DNA from: Cloacibacterium normanense
GTDB taxonomy: Bacteria > Bacteroidota > Bacteroidia > Flavobacteriales > Weeksellaceae
Assembly: GCF_003860565.1 (NCBI RefSeq)
Contig: NZ_CP034157.1
Coordinates: 2,046,001-2,110,000 of the forward strand
Direction of reading: 5' to 3'
Length of the DNA: 64,000 nt
The position numbers were made by a program, and so were the translations under genes. Positions 11,105-60,396 of the stretch are shown here, piece by piece. The notes under the pieces were generated by a model, which made no database searches, was not told the origin of the DNA, and worked only from the letters and a program-made list of their open reading frames with translations. How positions within the stretch are numbered: the stretch's first letter is position 1; each line of letters starts with the position of its first letter.

Positions 11105-11224
11105 ACGAAATTGCGCCCCAGATTGCAACGGAAATCCTTTTATTTTTCTTTGTCTTCGACTCCGCTCAGACTGACAGAAGTGGAAAAATAAAAGATTGTA
11201 GTGGAAAGCTGGAAATTTGGCGCC
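11105..11224 (+). repeat. Modular intergenic element, copy A
   Basis: An about 120-bp element beginning CGAAATTGCGCCCC and ending GGAAATTTGGCGCC. Inside are two direct copies of a GATTGyArYGGAAA unit (11121-11134 and 11194-11207). Between them is a perfect 12-bp inverted repeat, CTTTTATTTTTC (11137-11148) with GAAAAATAAAAG (11183-11194), whose loop carries the phrase TTCGACTCCGCTCAGACTGA. The same outer termini occur in inverted orientation at 59444-59538, and the GATTGCAACGGAAA units recur at 55180-55300. Confidence 0.65.
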
Positions 11225-12010: not shown

Positions 12011-13219
12011 TTAAATTTTTTCAATGATCATTGCGTATCCTTGTCCTACTCCGATACAGAGGGTACAAAGTGCATATTTTTTATTTTTTTTCTGTAATTC
12101 TAATGCGGCAGTTCCTACAATTCTGGTTCCTGACATTCCGAGAGGATGACCTAAGGCAATCGCGCCACCATTAGGATTTAATCGTTCGTCGTTTGCATCG
12201 ATTCCTAATTCCTGTAGAACTGATAATGCTTGAGCTGCAAAAGCTTCGTTGAGTTCAATAATATCCATATCTTCCAACGAAAGATTGGCTCTAGAAAGTG
12301 CTTTTTTGGTCGCTTCTACTGGTCCGATTCCCATAATTCTAGGTTCTACACCAACCACTGCGCTTGAAATAATTTTTGCCAATGGCTTCAAATTATATTT
12401 TTTCACTGCATCTTCACTTGCTAAAATCATGGCAGCAGCTCCGTCATTTAAGCCAGAAGAATTTCCTGCAGTTACACTTCCGCCTTCTTTTTTGAAAGCA
12501 GGTCTTAGCTTCGCTAATTTATCTAAAGTAGTATCTGGTTTTACAAATTCGTCTTGTGAAAAGATTTTTGGTTCTCCTTTTTTTTGTGGAATTTCTACGT
12601 TTACAATTTCTTGAGCTAATCTTCCTGAATTTTGAGCAGAAGTAGCTTTTTGTTGGGAATGTAAAGCGAATTCATCTTGCGCTTCTCTAGAAATTTTATA
12701 GATTTCAACTAGATTTTCAGCGGTTTCTCCCATTCCGTCAACTCCGTAGAGTTCTTTCATTTTAGGATTAATAAACCTCCACCCGAAACTGCTATCAAAC
12801 AACTGTACATCTCTGCCAAAAGGTTGAGCTGATTTACTCAAAACATAAGGCGCTCTAGTCATCTGTTCAACTCCACCTACAATGTAAAAATCGCCTTCTC
12901 CAATTGCAATCGCTCTGTACGCATTGGCAATCGCTGCCATTCCAGAAGCGCATAATCTGTTCACGGTTTCTCCGCCAATTTTTATAGGAAGTTCTGCCAA
13001 AAGTGAAGCCATTCTTGCTACATTTCGATTGTCTTCGCCAGCTTGATTGGCACAACCTAAAATCACGTCTTCTATTTCTTCGGCGGGAATTAGTGGATTT
13101 CTCTTTACAATTTCCTTCAAAACGACGGCTGCTAAATCATCTGCTCTTACTTCTGACAAGCCTCCTTGAAATTTAGCAATTGGTGTTCTGATGTAATCTA
13201 TGATGTATACTTGTTTCAT
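12011..13219 (-). CDS. paaJ: 3-oxoadipyl-CoA / 3-oxo-5,6-dehydrosuberyl-CoA thiolase
   Basis: A 402-residue thiolase that cleaves beta-ketoacyl-CoA with CoA and acts twice in the phenylacetate route, ending in acetyl-CoA and succinyl-CoA. The nucleophilic cysteine is in NRLCASGMAAI near residue 88, the active-site histidine in GGAIALGHPLGMSGTR near residue 357, and the second cysteine in CTLCIGVGQG near residue 387. Length is typical for PcaF/PaaJ. The gene lies between paaI and paaY on the same strand. A general acetyl-CoA acetyltransferase would look similar, and the assignment to PaaJ depends on context. Confidence 0.92.
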   Translation of the reverse strand: MKQVYIIDYIRTPIAKFQGGLSEVRADDLAAVVLKEIVKRNPLIPAEEIEDVILGCANQAGEDNRNVARMASLLAELPIKIGGETVNRLCASGMAAIANAYRAIAIGEGDFYIVGGVEQMTRAPYVLSKSAQPFGRDVQLFDSSFGWRFINPKMKELYGVDGMGETAENLVEIYKISREAQDEFALHSQQKATSAQNSGRLAQEIVNVEIPQKKGEPKIFSQDEFVKPDTTLDKLAKLRPAFKKEGGSVTAGNSSGLNDGAAAMILASEDAVKKYNLKPLAKIISSAVVGVEPRIMGIGPVEATKKALSRANLSLEDMDIIELNEAFAAQALSVLQELGIDANDERLNPNGGAIALGHPLGMSGTRIVGTAALELQKKNKKYALCTLCIGVGQGYAMIIEKI

Positions 13220-13225
13220 ATTTTT

Positions 13226-13292
13226 AATGAGATAATTAGATGATGTGGTAATGTGATAATTAAAAAATCAGCACATTTTCACACTAACACAT
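13226..13292. repeat. Word-patchwork intergenic repeat (paaI-paaJ gap)
   Basis: This gap contains AATGAGATAATTAG (13226-13239) and GGTAATGTGATAAT (13247-13260). The first recurs in inverted orientation at 16246-16259 and 52335-52348; the second recurs exactly at 16199-16212. Short complementary words (GATGTG, CACATC) allow partial folding. It probably belongs to the same dispersed patchwork class as 15301-15373. Confidence 0.6.
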
Positions 13293-14175: not shown

Positions 14176-15309
14176 TTATAGTTTTTTTAAAAGTGGACTT
14201 TGTCTGTATCGCTCTTCCTGATATTCCTCGTATAAATTTTGTAAGGTTTCTGAAATCTTTTGATAGCCAATTTCTTTTCCCCAATTTAATAATCCTTTCG
14301 GATAATTTACGCCTTTTTGCATCGCTGTTTCTATGTCTTCATCATTGGCAATTCCTAATCTTTTTGCTTCTACCGCTTCATTAATCAACATAGAAATAAT
14401 TCTCATAAAAATCATTTCATACAGACTTTCATCTTTTTGAGGAACTTGTTTTTCACTTCCTTCAGAATAATCATAGAAACCTTTTCCTGTTTTTCTTCCG
14501 AGTAATTTGGCTTCATTCATTCTTTGTTGAAGCAAGGAAGGTTTATATTTGGGATCGAAAAAATAATCCTGATAAACCGTTTTCGTTACCGAAAAATTAA
14601 CATCAATTCCGATTAAATCCATCAATTCAAATGGTCCCATTTTGAAATTCCCAAGAGATTTCATCGCATCATCTACTTGTTCTGGTGTTGCCAAATTTTC
14701 TTCTACAATTCTCAAAGCTTCACCATAAAAAGGTCTTGCAATTCTGTTGACAATAAAACCGGGAACATCTTTAGCAATGATAGGAGATTTGCCCCAAGAT
14801 TTCATTAAATTTACAATTTCTTGAGCCAAATTATTTTCAGTCAACAACCCTGGAATTACCTCAACCAAAGGCATTAATGGCGCTGGATTGAAAAAATGAA
14901 TTCCGATAAAACGTTCAGGATTTTTAAGCTCTGACTGAAGCGAAGTAATGGAAATAGACGAAGTATTAGAACCCAAAACACATTTTTCTGAAATATAGGT
15001 TTCTAACTCGGCGAAAACTTTTTGCTTGATTTCTTTATTTTCGATAATGGCTTCTATGACCAAATCACAATCTTTCAATTCCTTGATTTCTTGACAAGGC
15101 TTAATTTGATTGAAAATTTCTAAGGATTTTTCAGTAGAAATTTTTCCTTTTTCCGCTAATTTATCTAATGTGGTTTTTAAATTTTTTAGAGATTTTTCGG
15201 TTTGTGAGAAGTTGGCATCGTATAAAAAAACCTCGCAATGTGCAGTAGCTGCTACTTGCGCAATGCCAATTCCCATAGTTCCTGAGCCGATGATTCCTAC
15301 TTTCTTCAT
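14176..15309 (-). CDS. paaH: 3-hydroxyadipyl-CoA dehydrogenase PaaH
   Basis: A 377-residue NAD-dependent 3-hydroxyacyl-CoA dehydrogenase. The Rossmann motif is GSGTMGIGIAQVAA near residue 8; the catalytic His lies in FIGIHFFNPAPLMPLVEV near residue 137; the linker NRIARPFYGEALRI follows near residue 190. The length is between the short 280-residue enzymes and the 475-residue E. coli PaaH, consistent with one complete plus one partial C-terminal helical domain. It oxidises 3-hydroxyadipyl-CoA in the phenylacetate route. It follows paaG, with a repeat-filled gap between, and precedes two small membrane-protein genes. Confidence 0.92.
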   Translation of the reverse strand: MKKVGIIGSGTMGIGIAQVAATAHCEVFLYDANFSQTEKSLKNLKTTLDKLAEKGKISTEKSLEIFNQIKPCQEIKELKDCDLVIEAIIENKEIKQKVFAELETYISEKCVLGSNTSSISITSLQSELKNPERFIGIHFFNPAPLMPLVEVIPGLLTENNLAQEIVNLMKSWGKSPIIAKDVPGFIVNRIARPFYGEALRIVEENLATPEQVDDAMKSLGNFKMGPFELMDLIGIDVNFSVTKTVYQDYFFDPKYKPSLLQQRMNEAKLLGRKTGKGFYDYSEGSEKQVPQKDESLYEMIFMRIISMLINEAVEAKRLGIANDEDIETAMQKGVNYPKGLLNWGKEIGYQKISETLQNLYEEYQEERYRQSPLLKKL

Positions 15310-15373
15310 AATATGATGATGTGATGATGTGACGATGTGATAATCTGCAAATCAACACATCATCACATCATTA
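15301..15373. repeat. GATGTG/CACATC word hairpin (paaG-paaH gap)
   Basis: The gap holds tandem words GATGATGTG on the left (three near-copies) and their complement CACATCATCACATCAT on the right, so a hairpin of at least 14 bp can form around an AT-rich loop. The arms are built from imperfect tandem repeats, not a single palindrome, which allows several alternative foldings. It lies inside the operon and has no T-run, so a role as a simple terminator is unlikely. Confidence 0.62.
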
Positions 15374-16171
15374 TTATTTTCCTGTATAATTGGGTTTTCT
15401 TTTTTCTAAAAATGCAGCAACTCCTTCTTTGAAGTCTTCTGTTTCTGCTGCGTCTTGTTGATAAATTCCTTCTACATCTAGCTGCTCTTTTAAATCGTTT
15501 TCATAAGAATGATTGAATGCTTTTTTGGTTAACGCAATCGCTTTTGTAGGTAAATTAGAAAGCGTTTCCAGCACTTCCATTGATTTTGCAGAAAATTCTG
15601 CATCAGCGAAAACATCTGCAATTAATCCCAGCTTCAAAGCATCATTTGCCGAGAGTTTTTTTCCTGTAAAAGCAAGATAATTCGCCTGTTGACGTCCTAC
15701 TAACTTTGGCAACCAGTACGTTCCGCCAGTATCTGGAATTAAACCAATATTTACAAAAGCTTGAGAAAAATAGGAATTTTCTGTAGCCAAACAAATATCA
15801 CAAATCAGCGCCAACATTGCTCCAGCTCCAACTGCAGGACCATTCACCAAAGAAACGACTGGCTTTCTGCAATGTGCTATTTCTTCTACTAAAGGATTGT
15901 AATAGTCTACCACCATTTTCTGAATCACTCTTTCTTCTTCTACATTTCCGAGTGAAAGTGCTTCTTTCAAATTTTGCCCCGAACAAAAAGCTTTTCCTCT
16001 GCCAGAAAGTGCTACACAACGCACGTTTTCATCTTCATTGCATGCTACAATGAAATTTTTCAACTCTTGGAGTAAAACTTTATTGAGTGAATTGTAGGTT
16101 TCGGGCTGATTGAGATAAGCGATTTTCAACTTACCCTCGAAATGGTTTTCTATTTCTATCTGAGTGTACAT
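15374..16171 (-). CDS. paaG: Ring-1,2-epoxyphenylacetyl-CoA isomerase PaaG
   Basis: A 265-residue crotonase-fold isomerase. The oxyanion-hole segments are ALSGRGKAFCSGQNLKEA near residue 53 and NGPAVGAGAMLALICDICLA near residue 109, followed by PDTGGTYWLPKLVGRQ. PaaG converts ring-1,2-epoxyphenylacetyl-CoA to the oxepin and also shifts double bonds later in the route. Length and the QNLKE motif fit PaaG better than the shorter paralogue at 6771. It sits between paaD and paaH on the same strand, in the usual paa order. Confidence 0.9.
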   Translation of the reverse strand: MYTQIEIENHFEGKLKIAYLNQPETYNSLNKVLLQELKNFIVACNEDENVRCVALSGRGKAFCSGQNLKEALSLGNVEEERVIQKMVVDYYNPLVEEIAHCRKPVVSLVNGPAVGAGAMLALICDICLATENSYFSQAFVNIGLIPDTGGTYWLPKLVGRQQANYLAFTGKKLSANDALKLGLIADVFADAEFSAKSMEVLETLSNLPTKAIALTKKAFNHSYENDLKEQLDVEGIYQQDAAETEDFKEGVAAFLEKRKPNYTGK

Positions 16172-16262
16172 TTTTTTAATGTGATAATTTGTTAATATGG
16201 TAATGTGATAATGATTTTAACAAAGATACATTTTCTGAAAATTATCTAATTATCTCATTCTC
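16172..16262. repeat. Word-patchwork intergenic repeat (paaD-paaG gap)
   Basis: The gap contains AATGTGATAATTTG, then GGTAATGTGATAAT (16199-16212, identical to 13247-13260) and CTAATTATCTCATT (16246-16259, the exact reverse complement of 13226-13239). Words in both orientations let it pair with itself and with related gaps. No TAnnTTTG promoter is evident. Confidence 0.6.
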
Positions 16263-51072: not shown

Positions 51073-51103
51073 CAAAAGATTTGTTCTTTCATATAATCGA
51101 AAT

Positions 51104-51210
51104 GTTATCAAGAAAGGTGGAGAGATTAGACTCTGTGAAACCTTGGCAACCTCTCGCGTTTCTGAAACGAGAAAAGGTGCTACATTCTACTCATTTTTGG
51201 GATAGATAAC
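51104..51210 (+). ncRNA. SAM-I (S-box) riboswitch
   Basis: The leader has the S-box layout: P1 made of GTTATC (51104-51109) and GATAAC (51205-51210), the conserved GAAAGGTGGAGAGATTAGA segment, TGTGAAACCTTGGCAACCTC near 51134-51153, and the P3/P4 part with AAAGGTGCTACATTC. Its position in front of metH fits, since it senses S-adenosylmethionine. The variable P3 stem (CTCGCGTTTCTGAAACGAG) is short. Family assignment is firm; whether it works at transcription or translation is open. Confidence 0.93.
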
Positions 51211-51220
51211 ACATAAAAAC

Positions 51221-55009: not shown

Positions 55010-55067
55010 TTTCTCACAGATTTGACTACGCCGAAACTTCGTTTTCGCAGATTTTCACAGATAAAAA

Positions 55068-55133
55068 ATGTTCCGTAGGAACATAATATGTGTAAAAAAA
55101 TATAGACAGTAAAGAGGCGCTCCGTAGGAGCGC
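55068..55133. repeat. Two CCGTAGG-core palindromes after metH
   Basis: ATGTTCC GTA GGAACAT (55068-55084) and GCGCTCC GTA GGAGCGC (55117-55133) are perfect 7-bp inverted repeats with identical GTA loops and a shared YTCCGTAGGAR core. They look like two members of a REP-like palindrome family. They lie in the 357-nt gap between metH and metF. Confidence 0.65.
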
Positions 55134-55179
55134 TATGTTAAAAAAATAAAGATTGTTATGTGCGCATATTTGCGTGAGC

Positions 55180-55300
55180 GATTACAGTGAAAATCCTTTT
55201 TTTGCTAGGAAAAAGCTTTGGCAAAAAAAGATTGCAACGGAAAGCGCAGTCTTTTTAAAAAATTGCAGGGAATGCGCTTCGGATTTTTAAAAAGACACGC
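55180..55300 (+). repeat. Modular intergenic element, copy C
   Basis: Three spaced units, GATTACAGTGAAAATCC (55180-55196), GATTGCAACGGAAAGCGC (55230-55247) and AATTGCAGGGAATGCGC (55261-55277), alternate with perfect inverted repeats. These are CTTTTTTTGC/GCAAAAAAAG (55196-55205 and 55221-55230) and GTCTTTTTAAAAA/TTTTTAAAAAGAC (55249-55261 and 55284-55296). It follows the same plan as copy A at 11105-11224. Confidence 0.65.
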
Positions 55301-55366
55301 CCAAAATAGAAAAAATTAAAATATTTAAAAAATAGGAACAGCTTGCTTCGTTCCTCGGAAAGACAA

Positions 55367-56329
55367 ATGAAAGTAACAGAACACATACAAAACGCCAACG
55401 GAAAAACACTTTTTTCTTTTGAGATTTTACCACCATTAAAAGGTCAAAATATACAGTCAATATTTGATGCGATTGATCCATTGATGGAATTTAATCCTGC
55501 ATTTATAGATGTTACGTACCATCGTGAAGAATATGAATATGTAGAACGTGAAGATGGACTTCTGGAAAAACGAGTGGTAAAAAAAAGACCGGGAACTGTG
55601 GGAATTTGTGCTGCCATTCAGAATAAATATGGTGTAGATGCAGTTCCGCATATTTTGTGCGGTGGATTTTCTAAGGAAGACACCGAAAATTTCTTAATTG
55701 ACATCGATTTTTTGGGAATTCATAATGTAGTGGCTTTAAGAGGAGATGCGGTGAAAACGGAAACCTATTTTAAACCCGAGAAAAACGGACATGCTTTTGC
55801 CAAAGATTTGGTAGAACAAATCGTGAAAATGAATCACGGAACTTACCTAGACGAAAGTTTAGAAAATTCTGCTTGTACAGATTTTAACATCGGTGTTGCA
55901 GGTTATCCTGAAAAACACATGGAAGCAGCAAGTCTGGAACAGGACATTTACCACCTCAAGAAAAAAGTAGAAGCAGGTGCAGATTATATCGTGACGCAAA
56001 TGTTTTTCGACAATCAAAAATATTACGATTTTATAGAAAAATGCAGAACTTCTGGTATTAATGTTCCTATTATTCCTGGATTAAAACCAATTACTACCAA
56101 GTCTCAACTGAGTATGATTCCGCATCGTTTTAAGGTAGATTTGCCTAACGATTTGGTGATTGCAATTGCTAAAGCAAAAGACAACAAAGAAGTAAAAGAA
56201 ATTGGCATCAACTGGTGTATTCAGCAGAGCAAAGATTTAATGAAAAACGGCGCCCCTGTTCTGCATTATTATTCCATGGGAAAAAGCGAAGTGGTAAAAA
56301 GAATTGCTTCTGAAGTGTTTAAAGACTAA
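55367..56329 (+). CDS. metF: Methylenetetrahydrofolate reductase
   Basis: A 320-residue FAD enzyme that makes the methyl-tetrahydrofolate used by MetH. Family motifs: FSFEILPPLKG near residue 17 (catalytic Glu), ALRGDAVKTETYF near residue 130, GVAGYPEKHMEAAS near residue 177, QMFFDNQKYYDF near residue 216 and PIIPGLKPITTKSQL near residue 242. The frame is open to 55343, but the ATG at 55367 (MKVTEHIQNANGK) gives the usual N-terminus. It follows metH by 357 nt of repeat-rich DNA, so it may not share the riboswitch transcript. Confidence 0.95.
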   Translation: MKVTEHIQNANGKTLFSFEILPPLKGQNIQSIFDAIDPLMEFNPAFIDVTYHREEYEYVEREDGLLEKRVVKKRPGTVGICAAIQNKYGVDAVPHILCGGFSKEDTENFLIDIDFLGIHNVVALRGDAVKTETYFKPEKNGHAFAKDLVEQIVKMNHGTYLDESLENSACTDFNIGVAGYPEKHMEAASLEQDIYHLKKKVEAGADYIVTQMFFDNQKYYDFIEKCRTSGINVPIIPGLKPITTKSQLSMIPHRFKVDLPNDLVIAIAKAKDNKEVKEIGINWCIQQSKDLMKNGAPVLHYYSMGKSEVVKRIASEVFKD

Positions 56330-58972: not shown

Positions 58973-58979
58973 ATTTTTG

Positions 58980-59376
58980 TGGAGTTGGAGGGATTCGAAC
59001 CCTCGTCCAAACAAGCAATACGCAAGCTTTCTACATGCTTATTTTGCTATTGGTTTTCGTCGTAAAGCAGACAGCAAACAGCCAACTTTACGCTTATCTT
59101 CTAAAATTTTCGTTCCCGAACCGAAGTTTTTCGGGACTTATTTCCGCATTTTCTATGCCTCGGAATCGAACGTCGCAGAACAGAACTTTCGGGAGACATC
59201 TTGTTTCCTTACTATACTTCGGGAAAAACGCCAATCCTACTAAGCTTCGGATTAAGCAGCAAGAGCAAACTCTTCGTTGCCAGTTAAATTCTGTAGCAAG
59301 GGATTAAAGAGATCGCGCTACGGTTCTCTGCATGCTTACTTACCCATTGGTCTTGCTGTCGAAACCAGTCAACCCC
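58980..59376 (-). ncRNA. ssrA: Transfer-messenger RNA
   Basis: A 397-nt tmRNA. The 5' end is GGGGTTGACTGGTTTCGACA and the 3' end has the T-arm GGTTCGAATCCC and acceptor strand CAACTCCA, pairing with GGGGTTG (one G-T). CCA is not encoded in full (the next bases read CA). The tag reading frame GGC AAC GAA GAG TTT GCT CTT GCT GCT TAA gives GNEEFALAA, ending in the usual ALAA degradation signal. It rescues stalled ribosomes with SmpB. ORFs drawn through this region are spurious. Confidence 0.97.
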
Positions 59377-59398: not shown

Positions 59399-59443
59399 AG
59401 CAAAAAATGTACCTAAATTTTAATTCTGCATTTCTTTTATTGT

Positions 59444-59538
59444 GGCGCCAAATTTCCGCCTTCCGTTCCCGCTTTTTTTGAGCGGCGGCAAAGCCGCCGC
59501 ACAAAAAAGAGCTCCACTAAAGTCGGGGCGCAATTCCG
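59444..59538 (-). repeat. Modular intergenic element, copy B
   Basis: Read on the minus strand, GGAATTGCGCCCC (59537-59525) opens and GGAAATTTGGCGCC (59457-59444) closes the element, as in copy A. The core is a G+C-rich hairpin, GCGGCGGC/GCCGCCGC with an AAA loop (59482-59500), flanked by CTTTTTTTG and CAAAAAAGAG, so here a different hairpin occupies the same position as in copies A and C. Confidence 0.7.
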
Positions 59539-59667
59539 TCATCATTAGAACTTTTTAACCAAATTTTGAAAATTTCTCTCTTAAAAACTCATAAAAAAGT
59601 TAATCTCGGTTAAAGTTGTTTCAGCAATCAAATTTCAAAATAATTTTGAGGCTGCTAATCATAACCC

Positions 59668-60396
59668 ATGAAGAAAACTCTACTCCTATTTTTATTCCTT
59701 ATCTCCCATTCTTTTTATACTCAAGAATACATTTTCGGCAAAATTACCTCAGAACAAAACATAGAATTATCGGGTGTTTTAATTCTCAACACCAGAACCG
59801 ACGAAAAAACCTATTCAGACAGCGATGGCAATTTTATGATTTCTGCAAAAAACAATGATGCACTGCGATTCGTAAAACAAAAATTTGATAGAATTACCTA
59901 TTCTGTAAAACCAGAAGATTTTAAAAATTCTATAAAAATCACATTGATAAAATCCGTAGTAGAAATAGAAGAGGTAGAAATTAAAACCAAACTCACAGGC
60001 AATTTAAGAGAAGATGCAAGAAGAGTAGAATCTGTGAGAAAAGTAAAACTCAATAAAGAAATTGCTAAATATATTGCTGAAAAATCTGACCCAGAAATTA
60101 TAAAACCAAGAGGTGGCGAATTTGTACAACCAGTTGGACAAGGTTTTTCTGTAGGAAAAGTTTCTAATCAAGCAGACCAAATAGATCTAGCCGAAGAATT
60201 TCTAGAAATTCTTGGCGAAGATTATTTTACAGATTTAGGACTTAAAAAAAGTGAAATTTCGAGCTTTATTTTTCATGTAATGAGTGGATTAGATTTAAAA
60301 AACGCTTATAAATATGGTTATCTAAAAGGAAACGATATTGCTCAGTTCAGAAAACAAGCAGAAATAAAAATCAATGATTTTAGAAAATTAAAGTAG
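59668..60396 (+). CDS. Secreted protein with carboxypeptidase-D-like regulatory domain
   Basis: A 242-residue protein with a signal peptide (MKKTLLLFLFLISHSFYT). Residues 20-100 fit the CarboxypepD_reg-like beta-sandwich (IELSGVLILNTRTDEKTYSD, GNFMISAKNNDALRFVK), which often precedes TonB-dependent receptors. Here it is followed by a helical, charged part to the end (REDARRVESVRKVKL ... QFRKQAEIKINDF) and no barrel. It probably acts as a small envelope protein. It lies alone after the tmRNA region. Confidence 0.82.
   Translation: MKKTLLLFLFLISHSFYTQEYIFGKITSEQNIELSGVLILNTRTDEKTYSDSDGNFMISAKNNDALRFVKQKFDRITYSVKPEDFKNSIKITLIKSVVEIEEVEIKTKLTGNLREDARRVESVRKVKLNKEIAKYIAEKSDPEIIKPRGGEFVQPVGQGFSVGKVSNQADQIDLAEEFLEILGEDYFTDLGLKKSEISSFIFHVMSGLDLKNAYKYGYLKGNDIAQFRKQAEIKINDFRKLK

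Follow-up and report, generated by a model that had tools for sequence, protein, structure and literature searches.

Copies A, B and C of an intergenic repeat in the window (the whole 64,000-nucleotide stretch of Cloacibacterium normanense DNA analysed here) belong to Flavo-1 (RF01705), a known Bacteroidetes "RNA" family without an explained function, and their membership is secure. On balance, we think it probable that they are dispersed intergenic quasi-palindromes in which recombination or template switching between copies rewrites the inner modules in place. Flavo-1 dates from 2010, when computational inference put it forward as a candidate structured RNA (Weinberg et al., PMC2864571), and it has been listed as a structured RNA ever since. 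The family was already known, and the earlier note, which described a modular repeat with an exchangeable hairpin core, did not recognise it. In the literature that we searched we found no description of core exchange, loop inversion or G-U depletion, nor of the outer pairing layers, the three-way-junction class and the absence polymorphism of Flavo-1.

Flavo-1 copies in the window and in relatives

The RF01705 covariance model (full model, positions 1-76) scores copy A at 63.8, copy C at 53.1 and copy B at 43.8 bits (E-values 1.3e-11, 1.1e-8 and 4e-6, respectively), against a gathering score of 42, so that all three lie above the curated score in sequence and structure; the taxonomic range is also that of the family. 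The features are as follows.

11105..11224, + strand: copy A, Flavo-1 element with GCGCC-type outer ends and A-type inner arms (Rfam match 11111-11219)
11108..11119, + strand: 5' outer end of copy A, AAATTGCGCCCC, common to copy B and retained at the orthologous site in G003 and G004
11121..11136, + strand: 5' unit of copy A, GATTGCAACGGAAATC, unit matched exactly
11137..11193, + strand: T/A inner stem of copy A; its loop contains CTTCGACTCCGCTCAG, a dispersed repeat (from the genome count of TGAGCGNAGNCGAA)
11194..11209, + strand: 3' unit of copy A, GATTGTAGTGGAAAGC, unit matched exactly
11211..11224, + strand: 3' outer end of copy A, GGAAATTTGGCGCC, common to copy B; its last bases remain in G002 and G006
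55172..55304, + strand: copy C, Flavo-1 element in the metH-metF gap (Rfam match 55167-55255)
55249..55297, + strand: second hairpin of copy C, both stem arms replaced relative to G003 and G004
59440..59541, - strand: copy B, Flavo-1 element with GCGCC-type ends and a B-type core (RF01705, 43.8 bits)

Copies A and B have GAAATTGCGCCCC / GGAATTGCGCCCC in common at the 5' end and GGAAATTTGGCGCC at the 3' end, and their cores differ, so the constant outer ends and different hairpin cores described in the earlier note are confirmed from the sequences. Its description of copy C also holds, as C carries the GATTGCAACGGAAA units together with two other hairpins. The ends of C (GCGTGAG ... ACGCCC) are of a different class, and the outer ends of A and B are therefore not shared by C. 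Copy B lies between the 5' side of the tmRNA gene and the gene at 59668-60396.

Inside the window alone, with two mismatches allowed, the short unit occurs barely more often than expected by chance, and the weight consequently rests on the genome-wide and Rfam evidence. Across the genome, the unit GATTGYARYGGAAA has 37 near matches, compared with 4 for the reversed control pattern. At least 29 Flavo-1 matches at E <= 0.001 were obtained from the 150 of 870 candidates that were scored, and copy B, which was outside those scored, comes in addition. The genome has about 30 copies in all. Flavo-1 matches were present in 23 of 40 relatives, at 1 to at least 89 copies each with the number of scored candidates capped, and in 15 of 118 genomes of a phylum-wide sample, all 15 in the same class; there were none in 14 control genomes. 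A weak model match inside metF (window 55768-55847, 28.5 bits) was put down to chance.

Between the window and C. normanense IMET F, the MetF proteins are 99% identical and the DNA is 94-97% identical. In IMET F, synteny is lost within the 3' end of the tmRNA gene (window 58977-59376; L060:13629 onward); the DNA beyond is unrelated, a pattern that would fit integration of an element at ssrA.

Core replacement at orthologous sites

For 29 copies, the orthologous regions were drawn from four sister genomes (G002, G003, G004 and G006), which together with the genome of the window (G000) are 92.7-94.5% identical pairwise. At 12 of the 29 sites (element present in at least two genomes) the core is replaced and the flanks and outer arms are kept, with outer arms 0.75-1.0 and cores 0.23-0.64 identical. 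At site 58, for example, identity is 0.97 in the flank, 0.96 in the outer arms and 0.32 in the core; the corresponding values at site 32 are 0.97, 1.0 and 0.40. Sites A and B are additional to these 12. Site A holds a B-type core (GACTTGAGTGGAGCTC ... AGCGGGAACGGAAGGCGG) in G004, between the same GAAATTGCGCCCC and GGAAATTTGGCGCC ends; in G003 the core is that of the window and the ends are retained, and in G002 and G006 just the last bases of the 3' end remain, the rest of the element being absent. Conversely, site B carries the B-type core in the window, G002 and G003, an A-type core in G004 and a deletion in G006. The second hairpin of copy C differs from those of G003 and G004 on both arms of its stem, with nearly identical ends. 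All core alleles at the exchanging sites keep pairs that link both halves (5 to 36 pairs). These alignments show that cores are exchanged between constant ends, as the earlier note had inferred.

The cores belong to a stock that recurs at different sites. An 88% match over 59 nt links the core of site 40 in G006 to that of site 46, which is not orthologous to it, and the cores of sites 37 and 38 are 93% alike. A dispersed repeat in its own right, TGAGCGNAGNCGAA, forms the apical part of copy A; the genome has 32 copies of it and none of the reversed pattern, and five of the 32 sit in Flavo-1 loops. We found no recent donor-recipient pair with an identical core, the best full-length match being 88% and the best partial matches 93-97%, so the copying step has not been caught in the act.

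The distribution of cores among genomes differs from site to site. Cores at sites 32, 41 and 58 group {G000,G002} against {G003,G004,G006}, and those at sites 47 and 55 group {G000,G004} against the others. At sites 32 and 58, moreover, the nearest relative by core similarity is not the nearest by flank similarity (within 50 nt). The groupings thus conflict both between loci and with the immediate flanks, in a comparison of the kind that the earlier note had proposed. The five genomes are almost equidistant, so that exchange events are not countable on a tree, and allelic recombination from strain to strain could spread a core without a fresh exchange, which counts against our explanation.

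Flavo-1 is missing from many sites in one or more sister genomes, indicating frequent loss between sister species, and the empty sites about which the earlier note had asked do exist. Their boundaries are ragged or hold remnants, and the remnants at A and B indicate deletion. No clean target-site duplication was found at the element-less sister sites, and we take them as probably not being clean insertion sites.

Layered fold and Watson-Crick covariation

Each Flavo-1 copy is a nested quasi-palindrome. Its outer pairing block encloses the 5' and 3' units, and these in turn enclose a T/A stem topped by an apical hairpin. The classes of outer pairing block include TAGCCC/GGGA, GCGCC/GGCGC and GCGTtAG ... 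ACGCCC; blocks of the last class close a three-way junction that includes a second hairpin, copy C being an example. Although the 5' and 3' units repeat GATTGnAnYGGAAA in direct orientation, they pair together through G-A-rich 3x3 internal loops. The nested fold is predicted for A, B and C under both RNA and DNA parameters: copy A as one long nested hairpin closed by GCGCC/GGCGC, and copy C as a three-way junction (GCGT/ACGC) with two hairpins. In all three copies, the Rfam strand is predicted to fold more stably than its complement.

In an alignment of 99 copies, paired columns change freely among T-A, A-T, G-C and C-G, and most G and A positions of the outer internal loops are 84-98% constant, a few columns being weaker. 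Watson-Crick pairs dominate the paired columns. G-U makes up 1.9% of covarying pairs in Flavo-1, compared with 13.3% in SAM riboswitches of the same relatives, in a comparison in which the Flavo-1 alignment is model-fitted, the control consists of just one family aligned by sequence, and a column pair that had aligned badly is excluded. tRNAs were discarded as a control since they vary too little.

Apical loops are inverted between sister species, with AAA/TTT at B and site 39 and TTCG/CGAA at site 53. Replication template switching is described as leaving multiple compensatory changes and inverted loops behind (PMC8794818, PMC8604942), and Flavo-1 shows the marks of a template-switched quasi-palindrome in the loop inversions at B, 39 and 53 and in the both-arm stem replacement at C. 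Hairpins remodelled by template switching resemble Flavo-1 in these multi-base compensatory changes and inverted loops. The changes reported in those papers, however, lie within one hairpin or inverted repeat, and the whole-core replacement and recurring core types of Flavo-1 go further.

A proposed model of in-place overwriting and its implications

We propose a model in which the inner layers of a copy would be overwritten in place while the outer layers stay. The new core would derive from another Flavo-1 copy or from another palindromic repeat. The likeliest route is ectopic gene conversion or replication template switching, with both end points of the copied tract inside the shared paired layers; copying bounded in this way would change both arms together, so that the stem stays paired. 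Template switching within a single copy would homogenise the arms and flip the loops, and copy loss would be ordinary deletion. We found no dedicated enzyme for core exchange. The exchange route and its DNA level are what we infer from these patterns, which point less to an ordinary RNA gene than to a DNA palindrome under rapid remodelling. A bolder version, which we put forward tentatively and think may well be wrong, is that Flavo-1 is a Bacteroidetes DNA-hairpin repeat and not an RNA gene, with recurrent and perhaps enzyme-assisted swapping of inner hairpin modules from copy to copy; the swap would pass through single-stranded or cruciform DNA, with its arms held in Watson-Crick and sheared G-A pairs.

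If the covariation stems largely from DNA-level copying, strong covariation with almost no G-U would be a warning of a DNA palindrome posing as an RNA family. G-U frequency would then, if this is true, offer a simple screen for other predicted RNA family entries. With about 30 copies per genome and sister species at hand, Flavo-1 also provides a natural system for watching the exchange of hairpin modules.

Orientation and the case for a functional RNA

It is unlikely, in our judgement, that Flavo-1 is instead a functional RNA whose fold is selected in transcripts, with core changes tolerated as only the fold matters. Such an RNA would account for the very strong covariation, for the conserved G-A internal loops on one strand and for the greater folding stability of that strand in all three copies; the G-U pairs, about seven times rarer than in the riboswitch control, and the frequent loss among sister species argue against it. 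Gene orientation points both ways. In this genome, copies between co-directional genes are antisense in 21 cases and sense in 4, a bias that would suit an RNA, but outside this genome we counted 26 sense and 26 antisense copies, without strand preference. We therefore rejected a strand-specific RNA role deduced from gene orientation, for which the outer-end classes give no rescue. In the transcriptome of F. psychrophilum, Flavo-1 matches are likewise indistinctly sense or antisense and many are untranscribed, for which reason that study assigned Flavo-1 no function (PMC9723704).

The metH-metF gap also speaks for a functional RNA. Flavo-1 occupies it in the same orientation in ten species of several genera (L061, L062, L069, L075, L077, L078, L111, L127, L132 and L136), mostly as the three-way-junction class, and at thirteen loci it lies upstream of metH in the opposite orientation. 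Conservation of site and orientation would fit a local function too, which counts against our explanation. The copies in the gap differ in outer and core types across genera, suggesting long persistence with parts turned over, and the conservation could reflect either descent with in-place turnover or a local role. The split metH genes in the metH-metF cluster have a SAM riboswitch upstream of them (window 51102-51212).

Mobile elements, hot spots and terminators

REPs and BIMEs are, like Flavo-1, dispersed intergenic imperfect palindromes of mosaic make-up. That Flavo-1 is such an element, moved by a Y1 transposase (RAYT or IS200-type) that works on single-stranded hairpins, seems improbable to us. 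Flavo-1 copies are short, Y1 transposase genes occur in this genome and in five of six Cloacibacterium relatives, and the Y1-less relative (G002) has the fewest copies (9). Yet the Flavo-1-rich G014 has just a single IS200-length Y1 gene, G025 has 14 copies and zero Y1 genes, and no clean target-site duplication was seen at the element-less sites. Unlike REPs mobilised by RAYTs, Flavo-1 does not lie beside the RAYT genes of this genome, and RAYT mobilisation was rejected on finding that the resident loci have no Flavo-1 match and are flanked by different repeats of their own. These loci comprise a tandem pair of RAYT-like Y1 transposase genes (G000:C1:824000-828600, L306), whose flanks bear inverted repeats of 30-36 nt, CCCGCTGCGCAAAGTCTCCCGACTTTGAGC, that have no relation to Flavo-1. 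Around the third Y1 transposase match (G000:C1:1451300-1453600, L307) there are many tandem repeats of 15 nt, AAGTTCTCTTTGCCG, and palindromes of 33 nt, AACTTCGGCAAAGTTT.

Separate insertions at hot spots, or recombination of whole intergenic regions between strains, could produce different cores at one site without any exchange within the element, and the fast turnover of intergenic regions and the many sites that are element-less in at least one genome would agree with this. We consider it quite improbable, as flanks within 40-50 nt and outer ends remain 0.9-1.0 identical despite the change of core (e.g., sites 32, 41, 55 and 58) and flank and core name different relatives at 32 and 58. The terminator-carrying repeat of the earlier note, which the strong hairpins near gene ends, with their T and A runs, could evoke, is very improbable: the T-run precedes (and the A-run follows) the hairpin on either strand, opposite in polarity to an intrinsic terminator, the terminator scan called none at copy A, and copy C lies between metH and metF, both on the same strand.

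Two further comparisons of the earlier note, with integrons and retrons, also found no support. Integron attC sites have constant paired ends around a variable hairpin core, a layout that Flavo-1 shares. Flavo-1 differs in that no integron integrase matches at the curated cut-off (the best TIGR02249 match reaches 122 bits against a cut-off of 265, and such sub-threshold matches occur in all 14 control genomes) and in the absence of cassette arrays with attC sites, its copies standing singly between ordinary chromosomal genes. For retrons and diversity-generating retroelements, reverse transcriptase went undetected in seven of eight Flavo-1-bearing genomes, this one included, PF00078 being found in the remaining one.

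Intergenic gaps of the window hold other repeats. A short palindrome, GTTCCGTAGGAAC / GCTCCGTAGGAGC with a similar tail after it, is repeated in intergenic positions (window 55067-55146, and in the flank of L033), and degenerate tandem repeats of the type GATGATGTGATAAT occupy several gaps (window 13217-13260, 15301-15374 and 16169-16212).
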